Source of the DNA: Halomonas sp. TD01
GTDB taxonomy: Bacteria > Pseudomonadota > Gammaproteobacteria > Pseudomonadales > Halomonadaceae
Assembly (NCBI RefSeq): GCF_923868895.1
Contig: NZ_OV350343.1
Location: 2,418,001-2,482,000 of the forward strand
Reading direction: 5' to 3'
Length of the DNA stretch: 64,000 nt
Below the pieces are notes generated by a model, which was given only the letters and a program-made list of their open reading frames with translations, was not told the DNA's origin and did no database searches. The first letter of the stretch is position 1, and each line of letters begins with the position of its first letter. A program made the position numbers and the translations under genes. Below are positions 26,255-29,678 of this stretch, piece by piece.

Positions 26255-26533
26255 ATGCAAAATGCCCCACGCATTGAGCTTCACCCTATTAGCCAACGCG
26301 TGCAGGCGCAGGTTGACGGCACGTTAATCGCCGACTCCACCAATACGCTTGAACTCCGCGAATACGGCTACCCACCACGCCACTACTTCCCACGTGAAGA
26401 CGTGAGAATGGATTTACTTACTATTTCAGAAACCACCACGTATTGTCCGCTCAAGGGTGATGTCACCTACTGCACACCGATGTGGCGTGGAGCGATGACC
26501 AGCAGCCGATACGCTCAAAAAATATGGATCTAG
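26255..26533 (+). pseudogene. DUF427 protein gene, 3' end damaged
   Basis: Residues 1-72 match DUF427 (PF04248): VDGTLIADSTNTLELREYGYPPRHYFPREDV and TTTYCPLKGDVTYC. Normal members then continue with a segment ending AWSY-x-x-P and LAFYPDKV. Here the frame instead runs into 20 unrelated codons and a stop. A shift of one base after 26470 restores DVAWSDDQQPIRS, so a frameshift is present, and the last 20-30 family residues are missing altogether. The AT-rich lipoprotein cassette begins immediately after, which suggests the tail was lost when that DNA came in. Confidence 0.6.
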
Positions 26534-26561
26534 ATATGTTGTGAAAATATGAGGATGTTTC

Positions 26562-27479
26562 ATGAAGATTGCGTGGATTATTCTGATAATGTTCGTGCTG
26601 GCTGGATGCGCGGGAAATAGATATGGCGAAGTAGCAATCGGGTCACATAGCGTTTGGTGCAATGAAAGGTATTTGCCGGAAAGAGATTCGATTGAAACAG
26701 TACAAGACGAGCTGCATCTCGATGTCGCAAAGAATGGATATCTGTATGCCTTCTTGGGCGCTTATGCATTCCAAAAAGATAGCAAAGGTGGTTCAGACCA
26801 TCTATTTGTATTGCCAGAGTATATTGAAAGAGTTGAATCGCTTTCTGAGCAGGATGATGAGACAGGGTTCGAAGCTGAGGTCTTTAAGGTATATTCCAGT
26901 CAGAGCAATCTATTTGAGGTTGTAATTGTTTTCATTGGCTCGAATGATATGGCTGATTGGAGAACAAATTTTTCTTTTATAAATCGACGTCAGTATGACC
27001 AAGCAAGAAATTATGTACTTAATGTTGAGAAGGAGTTTCCGGAGATGAAGTTTGTCGTTGCCGGATATTCACTGGGTGGTGGATTGGCAGTTCACGTAAC
27101 AAAGCATGAACAAACGAGTGCCAAGGTTCAGCAAGCTTGGGCTTTTAACTCAAGCCCAAAAACATGGGGTGATGGAAGTAATGATGCTCGAATTTGGCAG
27201 GCTTCTATGTCACGTGATGCGCTTAAGATCGCGAGGTTGCCCATATTTCGGGTTCTTCCTGGGGTATCTAGAATTGGTGCAGGAAGCGGTCAAAGGGCGG
27301 AGAATTACTATCTAGTTGAATCGAATCGTGTTTATGCTCATTTTAGATGGGTTCTAGCGAGAGATATGTTGCACGTGGCTGACTTAGCTTTATACAAAGA
27401 AGGCGTTGAGGAAGAGTCATCAAAACCATTACATCTACTTAAATTATCTTCGTTCGCTGCTTGCAATGCCGCCCTCTAA
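26562..27479 (+). CDS. lipase-like lipoprotein (alpha/beta hydrolase)
   Basis: This 305-residue protein has a lipoprotein signal (LAGC, Cys16) and so is membrane-anchored. A GYSLGG segment (Ser about 170) after FVVA is the nucleophile elbow of class 3-type lipases, and VIVFIGSNDMADWRTN could provide the oxyanion region. The region is AT-rich compared with the surrounding genes and its codon use differs. The stop codon lies inside the left core of an attC-like site, as in integron gene cassettes. The substrate is unknown; a phospholipase or esterase is likely. Confidence 0.7.
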   Translation: MKIAWIILIMFVLAGCAGNRYGEVAIGSHSVWCNERYLPERDSIETVQDELHLDVAKNGYLYAFLGAYAFQKDSKGGSDHLFVLPEYIERVESLSEQDDETGFEAEVFKVYSSQSNLFEVVIVFIGSNDMADWRTNFSFINRRQYDQARNYVLNVEKEFPEMKFVVAGYSLGGGLAVHVTKHEQTSAKVQQAWAFNSSPKTWGDGSNDARIWQASMSRDALKIARLPIFRVLPGVSRIGAGSGQRAENYYLVESNRVYAHFRWVLARDMLHVADLALYKEGVEEESSKPLHLLKLSSFAACNAAL

Positions 27480-27551
27480 CAATCGGCTGCACAGCGGCCT
27501 ATTTCCCGCCGCTTCGCGGCTCTAAATCGGCTCGTGAGCCGGGCGTTGAGC
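27474..27551. other. integron attC-like recombination site
   Basis: This 78-bp site starts with CTCTAAC and ends with GTTGAGC. The right core fits the consensus GTTRRRY; the left core differs from RYYYAAC at one base. Inside them AAC-AAT-CGGCT-G-CAC pairs with GTG-AGCCG-GGC-GTT, with 3-nt spacers and a single unpaired G, the usual asymmetric bulge of attC. The central part has a GCCGC-TTC-GCGGC hairpin as in several cassette attCs. The stop codon of the lipoprotein gene lies within the left core. The call is by eye. Confidence 0.55.
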
Positions 27552-27561
27552 CTGTATAAAA

Positions 27562-27964
27562 ACTCCGCTGACGGCTAAGTTTTGGTAGGATCGAGAAAAA
27601 ATACGAGGAGTGGTCAGCATGCCGCGCTTCAAGGCTTATAGCTACGATCAGAACGCTATGGTGGTGATCAATTACCAAGATCAGATCCAGCTAGGCACCT
27701 TTGAACACGCTGTGCACTACCTGATCGACTGGATGAAGCATCGAGTCGATAGCCCCCCAGGGGCAAAGAAGTTTACAGCCATCGTATGTCAGTCGTGGAG
27801 CCCGTCTTCGGCAACATTGGCACAACGAAAAGGCTGAACCGCTTCAGCCTTCGGGGTAAGAAAAAAGTGCAAGGTCAGTGGCAGCTCTACTGCTTGGTGC
27901 ACAATATTGAGAAGTTGGCGAATTACGGCCACTTGGCCGCGTCATGAAGGGCCTGGAGCGGAGT
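27562..27964 (+). mobile_element. internally deleted IS1182-family element
   Basis: From 27619 the frame gives the IS1182-type transposase N-terminus (MPRFKAYSYDQNAMVVINYQD, then GTFEHAVHYLID). It then jumps straight to the C-terminal part (MKHRVDS, RMSVVEPVFGNIG, RLNRFSLRGKKKVQGQWQLY, CLVHNIEKLANYGHLAA, stop 27945-27947), with a frameshift near 27770. A full transposase is about 450-500 aa, so more than 300 internal codons are missing. ACTCCGCT (27562-27569) and AGCGGAGT (27957-27964) are an inverted pair and likely mark the ends. It is inactive and lies just after the attC-like site. Confidence 0.7.
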
Positions 27965-28043
27965 ATGTTGCTTTTTAAGAGCAAAAGGCCGTCTTCAACA
28001 AGCTTTAGCTGGGTGCCCAAGTGGCTAAATACCGATATTAAGA

Positions 28044-28071
28044 TTACTCAGTCAGATGACCGGCTGAGTAA
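28044..28071 (+). terminator. hairpin, possible terminator
   Basis: TTACTCAG (28044-28051) and CTGAGTAA (28064-28071) form an 8-bp stem with a 12-nt loop, followed by AT-rich sequence. It lies between the IS remnant and the DUF4365 gene. Confidence 0.4.
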
Positions 28072-28168
28072 ATAAATTAAGATGATAGGAGGTGGAGACG
28101 GCTCGAAATCGGTTTTTTCTACAGTCTCGTTATTCATCCTAGACTTCAATCGGCTAACAAGGATTAAC

Positions 28169-29029
28169 ATGGCAAAAAGAACGAACAATCATAAATTGGG
28201 TGACTTAGGCGAACTTAAGGTTAGAATGATATTTTCTGAAGCAGGGTTTGCTATATCAGAGATGTCAAAGGATTATGGCGAAGACTTTTTCGTATTTGGT
28301 GAAGACGCTGGTGTTATTGAGCCTTTCAGGATCTACGTTCAAGTAAAAACATCTGAAAAAAATGATCAACATAAGTCTGATTGGACAATTTACGAAGATT
28401 GCTTAACTGTTCGAAATTGGATTATTGGAAATGATCTTACAATTCTTGTTCGCCACAACAAAAAGTCAGGTGAATATAAATTTTGCGTTCCAGAGGATGA
28501 GGTTGAATATTGGAATTTACCATTTATTAAAGATAGTGATATTGCAATCAACTGTAACGAAAACTTTGATGCTGAAGCAGCAAAAAAATTGATGTGGATG
28601 GCTCGAATTAGACATTACGATAGGATTGTCAAAATTACTCAGCCAAATGAAATGGGAGAAGATACGTGGAATGATATTCCTAAATACAGGCTATTTTGTT
28701 TGGAGCTGTTAGTTAGACTTAAACTCATGGATCCTGTGAATCTTCATCTGAATAACGAGACATATCTGAAACTCGCCAATATCGCTGGAGAAATGATTGA
28801 CGATCATGAAGATTCAGAAGATATGAGTGCAGTTGAAAAGTCTAGATATGCAGCAAGCTTTTTATTAGTGGTAGATCAATTGGAAAAAGTTAGTGGATAT
28901 TCAGTTGGCATGAGTCAGTTTTTATTAGACTCTTGCGCTTGCTTACTAGTACAACTGATGTTTCACCGTGAAGAAGTTGCCATAAAAGAGCTCCAAGAAC
29001 TAGCATCAACCTTGAGGCTATCTACATAA
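28169..29029 (+). CDS. DUF4365 domain protein (PD-(D/E)XK nuclease-like)
   Basis: This 286-residue protein has an N-terminal DUF4365-type domain: GDLGELKVRMIFSEAGF (Glu15), KDYGEDFFVF (Asp35, Asp39) and RIYVQVKTS (Gln58-Lys60). This E...D...QxK arrangement is the active site of PD-(D/E)XK nuclease folds. Residues about 110-286 are a helical domain that I do not recognise. The start at 28169 has AAGGA 6 nt upstream; the frame reaches back to 28082. It is AT-rich, unlike the neighbouring chromosomal genes. The stop codon abuts a long palindrome. DUF4365 proteins occur in mobile and defence contexts, but no second component is seen. Confidence 0.65.
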   Translation: MAKRTNNHKLGDLGELKVRMIFSEAGFAISEMSKDYGEDFFVFGEDAGVIEPFRIYVQVKTSEKNDQHKSDWTIYEDCLTVRNWIIGNDLTILVRHNKKSGEYKFCVPEDEVEYWNLPFIKDSDIAINCNENFDAEAAKKLMWMARIRHYDRIVKITQPNEMGEDTWNDIPKYRLFCLELLVRLKLMDPVNLHLNNETYLKLANIAGEMIDDHEDSEDMSAVEKSRYAASFLLVVDQLEKVSGYSVGMSQFLLDSCACLLVQLMFHREEVAIKELQELASTLRLST

Positions 29030-29116
29030 TAATTCGTTTCCATTGATAAAATACTGTCACGAATTTTGGTACCTAAAATGTCGTGCCAGTATTTGTAACT
29101 GAACTCGGCGTTATAT
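29024..29116. other. large imperfect palindrome after the DUF4365 gene, candidate degenerate attC
   Basis: The inner part (29048-29093) is a palindrome of about 23-bp arms centred on GGTACC, with a few mismatches. Outside it, ATAAT-AAT-TCGTTT on the left faces AACTCG-GCG-TTAT on the right, in the order expected for attC core and spacer, with the left AAC changed to AAT. The layout resembles longer attC sites such as Vibrio VCRs, but the cores are poor matches, so a plain terminator or MITE is also possible. Confidence 0.3.
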
Positions 29117-29405
29117 CAGTTCCGCCTAAAATACCGTTCCTGGCCGATAGCGGCCAAGCCAACTTTGGTGATGCAGAGTTGCATATCCGAGAATCATGGC
29201 ACTGAATGCATCTGTTGCCAGGGAGAGAATTGCTTAGCCTCTGCTGTTTAGGTGCGTTGTTATTATCTGTATCAACCTGATGGTCGAGAGGAAATTGAAC
29301 TGACGCCTGATAGCGCCATCGAAGGAAATATCAGATAAAGATCGGCTTTTGCTGACAAGCTATTACTACCCGTTCTTGCAGGATGGGGTCTTCGCGGAGA
29401 ACTTT
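29117..29405. other. intergenic region after the DUF4365 gene
   Basis: It contains TTCCTGGCCGATAGCGGCC (about 29127-29145), a short inverted sequence with a relative (CTCCTGGCCGAAGACC) at 29665-29680. No gene is supported. Confidence 0.3.
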
Positions 29406-29573
29406 ATGGACTACGAACATGCAATTGTGAAATTCGAAGACGGGATTGGCATCCTGTTCTGCAACGGCTGCGGCATTATCATCGCTGAGGGTACCCAGCA
29501 TGAGGATAGAGAGCACTACTGTACCATGTGCATGAGCGGCAATTGTAAAGCAAAATTCAAGGACGGAAACTGA
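29406..29573 (+). CDS. tiny zinc-ribbon-like hypothetical protein
   Basis: This is a 55-residue frame with GGAG 6 nt before its ATG. It has two Cys pairs (FCNGCG and YCTMCM) separated by GTQHEDREH, a spacing that suits a zinc ribbon. A longer frame starts with TTG at 29349 but lacks a ribosome binding site. I do not recognise a family. It could be a small regulatory or toxin/antitoxin-like protein, but nothing shows that. Confidence 0.45.
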   Translation: MDYEHAIVKFEDGIGILFCNGCGIIIAEGTQHEDREHYCTMCMSGNCKAKFKDGN

Positions 29574-29678
29574 CATTTCCAGACCGCCACGCTCCGCGTT
29601 TTAGGGAAGGGGGCGTGGAATAGATGTTGTGAACATCATTAATCTGAAAACTCTTTAACATCCGCTCCTGGCCGAAGA

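Follow-up and report, generated by a model that had tools for sequence, protein, structure and literature searches.

Directly downstream of a gene for a lipase-like lipoprotein, Halomonas sp. TD01 carries what looks like the recombination site of an integron gene cassette, complete with a consensus right core, GTTGAGC. Is this a true attC, where does it end, and how does it come to lie where it does? We studied it in the surrounding 64,000-nucleotide stretch of contig NZ_OV350343.1 (the window), to which coordinates refer unless another sequence is named. Our reading, which we hold to be very probably correct, is that the site is the attC of the lipoprotein cassette in a small integrase-less array, later split by an attC-recognising transposon of the IS1182 family that duplicated the trinucleotide GTT. 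The features concerned are:

26255..26533, + strand: truncated DUF427 gene that bounds the array on the left (the PF04248 match stops at profile position 65 of 93)
26562..27479, + strand: cassette gene 1, encoding a 305-aa lipase-like (Mbeg1-like/DUF2974) lipoprotein (PF11187, 8.4e-6); its stop lies inside the left core, R'
27474..27547, + strand: attC1 up to and including the core GTT, supported by covariance model (38.0 bits) and homologous attCs
27545..27547, + strand: target duplication GTT, left copy (GTT on both sides)
27548..28128, + strand: internally deleted IS1182-family element, 581 bp, equivalent to bases 1-181 and 1428-1827 of the 1827-bp full-length copy L078
28129..28131, + strand: target duplication GTT, right copy, from the junction reading
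28132..28135, + strand: ATTC, outer bases of what was probably the native right core, GTTATTC, now displaced (A follows the duplication in 34 of 38 right ends)
28169..29029, + strand: cassette gene 2, encoding a 286-aa DUF4365 protein (PF14280, 4.7e-6, on the longer reading frame 28082-29026)
29023..29116, + strand: attC2 of the DUF4365 cassette, probable and degenerate (core GTTATAT at 29110-29116)

The core sites of attCs have the form RYYYAAC on the left (R') and GTTRRRY on the right (R''). A preliminary description had read a left core CTCTAAC enclosing the stop codon of the gene, followed by paired inner boxes with 3-nt spacers and one extrahelical base, and each of these elements is in place. 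R' occupies 27474-27480, with the TAA at 27477-27479. After the spacer AAT comes L' (CGGCT(G)CA, 27484-27491), which pairs with L'' (TGAGCCG, 27535-27541) and leaves a single extrahelical G at 27489; a central hairpin region separates the two boxes, and L'' is followed by the spacer GGC and the core GTT at 27545-27547. Compared with 200 shuffled sequences, the bottom strand folds better than 196 (z -2.45) and the top strand better than 169 (z -1.11), as expected of an attC.

The site was scored with a covariance model, R1, built from 21 scanner-found attCs in arrays of other genomes, one plasmid and the TD01 genome; attC1 and its close relatives were kept out of the training set. The E-values of the model are rough, as its calibration was short. 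Applied to class 1 cassettes in L077, it found three of three cassette ends (23.7 to 51.0 bits), and in L010 it found two of three (56.9 and 25.2 bits, the latter from a member of the training set); the GES cassette end escaped it. At score 30, the home-made scanner that supplied the seeds hits random sequence roughly once in every 64 kb, and attC1 scores 30.9. We preferred the covariance model because the scanner hits random sequence in this very range. With model R1, 27474-27551 is the sole match in the window at E ≤ 10 (38.0 bits, E 4.5e-8; E 2.9e-6 against the whole genome), far above the background below which, according to the preliminary description, the attC reading would have to be given up. 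Rfam gave no match in the window at gathering threshold. By blastn, 27477-27547 is 91.5% identical over 71 bp to an attC that neighbours an open intI in an order-level relative (L030/L162), and 27475-27547 matches a cupin-cassette attC of class 1 integrons at 84.9% over 73 bp. The strong hairpins here could end transcription, as those of a terminator or a chance palindrome after the gene would, but such an account of the site has a negligible probability: the model finds nothing else like it in 64 kb, and the identity of 85-92% to integron attCs, ending at the core, refutes it. With its core sites, its paired L boxes with spacers and an extrahelical base, and its bottom-strand folding, attC1 is, to judge from its sequence, a real gene-cassette recombination site of an integron and an ordinary member of its kind.

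The same cannot be said of the whole right core. In a four-way alignment of attC1 with related attCs, common identity ends at GTT, the crossover triplet, an indirect sign at best of recombination by an integron integrase; the consensus right core of the preliminary description is attC in these three bases, while its GAGC is the end of an IS1182-family remnant. GTTGAGC is thus a hybrid, because the element inserted at the core supplies the GAGC. The native right core was most likely GTTATTC, since this is what the right flank of the element reads. R' agrees with the consensus at six of seven positions, the present hybrid R'' at all seven and the probable native R'' at five.

The remnant has terminal inverted repeats, a feature of the IS1182 family: GAGCCTGTATAAAAA and TTTTTTCTACAGTCTC, ends of the GAGSCTGTAGAAAA type in inverted orientation. 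In the TD01 genome these ends recur as ...GCGTT running directly into GAGCCTGTAGAAAAA, and as ...TTTTTCTACAGCCTC running directly into GTT. The transposase of a full-length relative matches NF033551 at 260.3 bits, just under the cut-off of 270, and both PF13751 and PF05598 above cut-off, by which the full-length transposase of the group is assigned to the IS1182 family and the DDE type. An internal deletion of 1.25 kb took most of the transposase gene from the window copy, which should be unable to move by itself. Six left ends of the element were located in the TD01 genome, five by pattern and one as a weak match near 3743138. Three abut a model-detected attC (in the window, at 205872-205943 and at 12688-12735 of L046), and all six, including the three with no abutting attC, lie within about 5 kb of one.

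Is this placement peculiar to one genome? The left end of the element gave 128 matches in all, in 53 of the 82 genomes of the genus. From these we formed a set of 82 genus copies, consisting of 80 of the 124 matches outside the TD01 genome, the window copy and one other TD01 copy; the 80 were picked for starting no more than 5 bases from the query start, which left out weaker matches, those truncated on the left and some at contig edges. In 57 of these 82 copies an attC detected by model R1 at E ≤ 10 lies flush against the left end of the element (40 at E ≤ 0.01). The junction bases, GC followed by GTT, are kept in 71, 78, 79, 78 and 80 of 81 distinct flanks, base by base. On the scanner, 44 of 81 left flanks score at least 17; among 637 control GCGTT sites 4.1% do so, and among 1640 shuffles 1.8%, so that flanks and controls are separated only moderately. 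To the right of the element stands GTT, followed by A in 34 of 38 called right ends; an A in this place accords with cores of the form GTTARRY. The trinucleotides on the two sides are GTT and GTT in 33 of 39 copies and ATT and ATT in one (L101), the remaining five pairs being mismatched or mis-called; one right-end call (L083) is spurious, and the end found in L137 belongs to a second copy, the same as L156. Sixteen of 39 copies with a called right end are short and MITE-like, only 324-845 bp long with both ends kept (for example L081, L087, L110, L112, L121 and the window copy).

Scanning named genomes for relatives of the transposase gave 390, from which 80 loci were kept. They come from Halomonas, Billgrantia, Vreelandella, Chromohalobacter, Marinobacter, Mangrovitalea, Oceanospirillum, Marinospirillum, Nitrincola, Arsukibacterium, Alishewanella, Rheinheimera, Gayadomonas, Reinekea, Parahaliea and several metagenome bins. 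The model was applied to 66 of the 80; of the 14 left aside, eight repeat genus copies, while the others are closely related or sit at contig ends. Among these 66 loci, mostly from other genera, 47 have a model-detected attC flush against the element, and 205 of their 206 attC hits are on the strand of the transposase. GTT flanks the element on both sides at 74 of the 79 named loci with a located left end (that of one, L254, is doubtful); at L269 both trinucleotides are ATT, and at L271 the left one is GTT and the right one ATT. The position and orientation of the window remnant, whose attC, ends and flanking GTTs are in plain view, thus recur in about 100 other copies. On a Pseudoalteromonas plasmid (L172), a relative whose transposase is 41% identical has the same ends, flanked by GTT on either side, and its junction gives an attC match of 15.0 bits (E 0.53). 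In a second Pseudoalteromonas copy (L173) the right end only was found, and in Catenovulum (L174) the element lies in the opposite orientation: AAC stands at either end, and it is the other flank that resembles an attC. At nine loci of distant IS1182-family members (23-33% identity), model R1 found no attC at E ≤ 10.

Integron arrays might simply tolerate insertions, so that randomly placed elements survive there in the absence of any targeting. Arrays do carry non-essential genes, and another IS also sits in two arrays of the TD01 genome; tolerance, however, cannot explain why about 100 copies share a single base and a single strand of attC as their insertion point, and the nine outgroup loci lack attC, which makes this account very improbable. 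Nor can the pentamer CGTTA alone explain the targeting, because it occurs 141 times in 64 kb on both strands, or about 9,100 times per genome by scaling, compared with 14 attC model matches listed in the TD01 genome (150 of 1434 candidates were scored, so this census is incomplete). The relatives of the element look like a mobile element specialised on integrons.

A closer contender is the integron integrase itself. Its crossover triplet is GTT, cut between G and TT, and it could have inserted a circular form of the element (...CTC-GTT-GAG...) at attC by site-specific recombination. The duplicated trinucleotide would then be the crossover triplet, the exact and oriented position would follow, GTT would again be expected on both sides, and even the pair at L271 could be obtained. 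Recombination of a GTT circle with an ATT target should, however, leave one of each, whereas L101 and L269 have ATT on both sides, the mark of a true target duplication; copies off attC-like sites (L194, L224 and L245) still have GTT on both sides as well. We consider integrase-mediated insertion unlikely and retain transposition with duplication of the target.

The specificity is strong, not absolute, since some copies plainly lie elsewhere. A model-detected attC is absent from the junction in 25 of the 82 genus copies and 19 of the 66 named loci. By eye or by scanner, some of these junctions resemble attCs (L110, L129 and L256, for example) and others do not (L101, L108, L224, L245 and L269), so that the element also inserts outside attCs, at CGTT or ATT cores. 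The reversed copy in Catenovulum (L174), the unlike trinucleotides at L271 and the moderate scanner signal likewise weigh against strict targeting. Selection against insertions at other places could add to the pattern.

The attC that was hit belongs to more than one cassette's worth of DNA between DUF427 and recD. Of 12 relatives, ten share DNA similarity with the DUF427 region up to 26457 and two up to 26448-26449. Relatives of the lipoprotein number 39 proteins at E ≤ 0.001, itself included, the next best being 73% identical and encoded on a 2.5-kb contig. As a further refuting condition the preliminary description had named a gene fixed at this locus in relatives that lack attC. The outcome was the opposite: in the 82 genus genomes, the lipoprotein has one match outside TD01, at 38% identity. 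For this reason the left boundary of cassette 1 cannot be fixed by comparison. GTTGTGA near 26538 was considered as that boundary and dropped as a guess.

The second cassette gene was overlooked in the preliminary description. Its DUF4365 product matches a restriction-enzyme fusion model of PADLOC weakly (3.1e-5), and a defence cassette is possible. The site attC2 falls below the threshold of model R1, with no match at E ≤ 10, and aligns to the attC-IS junction of L114. Similarity to the relative L296 is strong from 29141 and fades at 29107, where L296 has a model-detected attC of its own. This similarity needs caution, as bases 29140-29676 are themselves a repeat: some 540 bp recur with 95-99% identity elsewhere in several genus genomes (L276-L279). 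The segment adjoins model-detected attCs in L277, L278 and L296, not in L276. It holds a 55-aa reading frame with CxxC pairs and has near-repeats CCTGGCCGA at its ends, and is possibly another mobile unit tied to integrons.

Model-detected attCs lie in the DUF427-recD interval in four of the 12 fetched relatives (L296, L299, L300 and L304). L301 has an attC downstream of DUF427 on a stretch that does not reach recD, and the remaining seven have no attC at E ≤ 1 in the interval. The fetched stretches of all 12 gave no intI match. The absence of an integrase from the window, noted in the preliminary description, was borne out: none of the 11 TIGR02249 matches of the genome falls inside it. Two origins had accordingly been offered, a CALIN-type remnant (at least two attCs with no intI nearby) or a cassette placed by an integrase at a secondary, non-attC site. 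For the latter, the truncation of DUF427 at 26457 does look as if something had landed there. Against it, a second cassette follows, relatives carry attCs in the same interval, and similarity to L296 starts, weakly, at the attC core; a single secondary-site insertion is accordingly as improbable as mere tolerance. The attCs in four of 12 relatives argue instead for an integrase-less cassette array. The second cassette, the attCs of relatives, and the other attCs and broken integrase genes of the genome all favour the CALIN reading, in which attC1 passes the model and attC2 is degenerate and below threshold. Of the preliminary reading as a whole, the integrase-less attC stands; the IS remnant, the second cassette and the array had all been missed.

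The genome-wide search for intI that had been suggested recovered two broken genes, at 3.635 Mb and 0.208 Mb, the former 1.2 Mb from the window array. At 3634987-3635820 (L011) lies a pseudogene scoring 329 bits with four stops, and at 208146 (L012) a fragment of about 60 residues, each with attCs on the opposite strand, in L011 alongside. The model places further attCs of this genome near 3.02-3.05, 3.75, 2.29 and 0.47 Mb. Both degraded integrons contain identical copies of another IS, which we take to be IS3-like (L011 4551-5689; L012 4391-5529). In L012, an IS1182-type end after an attC is cut short near that element.

Insertion sequences at a fixed position in attC have been described before. 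The IS1111-attC group (ISKpn4 and ISPst6; IS1111 family) occupies a fixed place in the attCs of certain cassettes, as set out in PMC11187229, which cites Tetu & Holmes 2008 and Post & Hall 2009 for this placement. The fixed attC position is common to both. According to that source, however, the IS1111-attC elements use a DEDD transposase and a guide RNA for target choice, whereas the lineage in the window has terminal inverted repeats, a 3-bp duplication and transposase domains of the DDE, IS1182 type, not the DEDD type of IS110/IS1111. Within the IS1182 family, IS1272 and TnSha1 of staphylococci insert into hairpin-forming DNA (PMC5678879 and PMC4923244), so that both transposase family and a taste for hairpin-forming targets are shared. 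Those two elements insert into many unrelated hairpins, with no target duplication and with partial or whole deletion of the stem-loop; the present lineage, unlike these, enters attC at a single base, leaves the hairpin in place and duplicates GTT. A distant IS1182-family copy on a Pseudomonas putida plasmid (L310; NZ_CP046873.1) apparently occupies a palindrome's loop and is flanked by GGTA on either side, a placement in line with hairpin targeting in the family. Group IIC-attC introns are likewise mobile elements associated with attC sites (PMC7923331), and are introns, whereas the present element is a DDE transposon. Searches of open-access papers gave us no report of an attC-targeting IS1182 lineage. 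The known attC-targeting group of insertion sequences is IS1111-attC.

How would such an element find and use its target? We suggest that the transposon inserts directly behind the core GTT, ahead of the outer right-core bases, and duplicates this trinucleotide, and that the transposase may choose its site by reading the (G)CGTTA core together with a folded or folding attC. As the element starts with GAG, each insertion would rebuild a near-consensus right core, GTTGAGC or GTTGAGG; copies from Oceanospirillum, Marinospirillum, Nitrincola and Reinekea start with CAG instead. Where GAG is present, a right core of the form GTTRRR is rebuilt, and the upstream cassette would therefore probably keep a plausible attC. 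From here it is a further, tentative step, and one we regard as possible though doubtful, that the upstream attC stays usable and that the element and the next gene form a larger cassette movable by the host integrase, making the transposon a hitch-hiker. One pair of loci bears on this. L121 and L124, from two genomes, share the element and at least 1.2 kb beyond it (94.8% identity over 1897 bp, from the end of the element on), with different attC-like flanks upstream, the sole such pair among the 108 loci compared. This fits what would be expected if the unit had moved as a cassette; homologous recombination is an alternative.

For annotation, such insertions are a trap: what passes for a perfect right core, GTTGAGC, conceals where the cassette really ends. 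If our reading is right, attC has been colonised by a lineage of DDE transposons besides the IS1111 elements and the group II introns. It would then be a recurrent target for mobile DNA, and a test case for an IS1182 transposase that reads folded DNA. Such insertion would also give transposons a route into, and along with, the cassette arrays of marine and halophilic bacteria.
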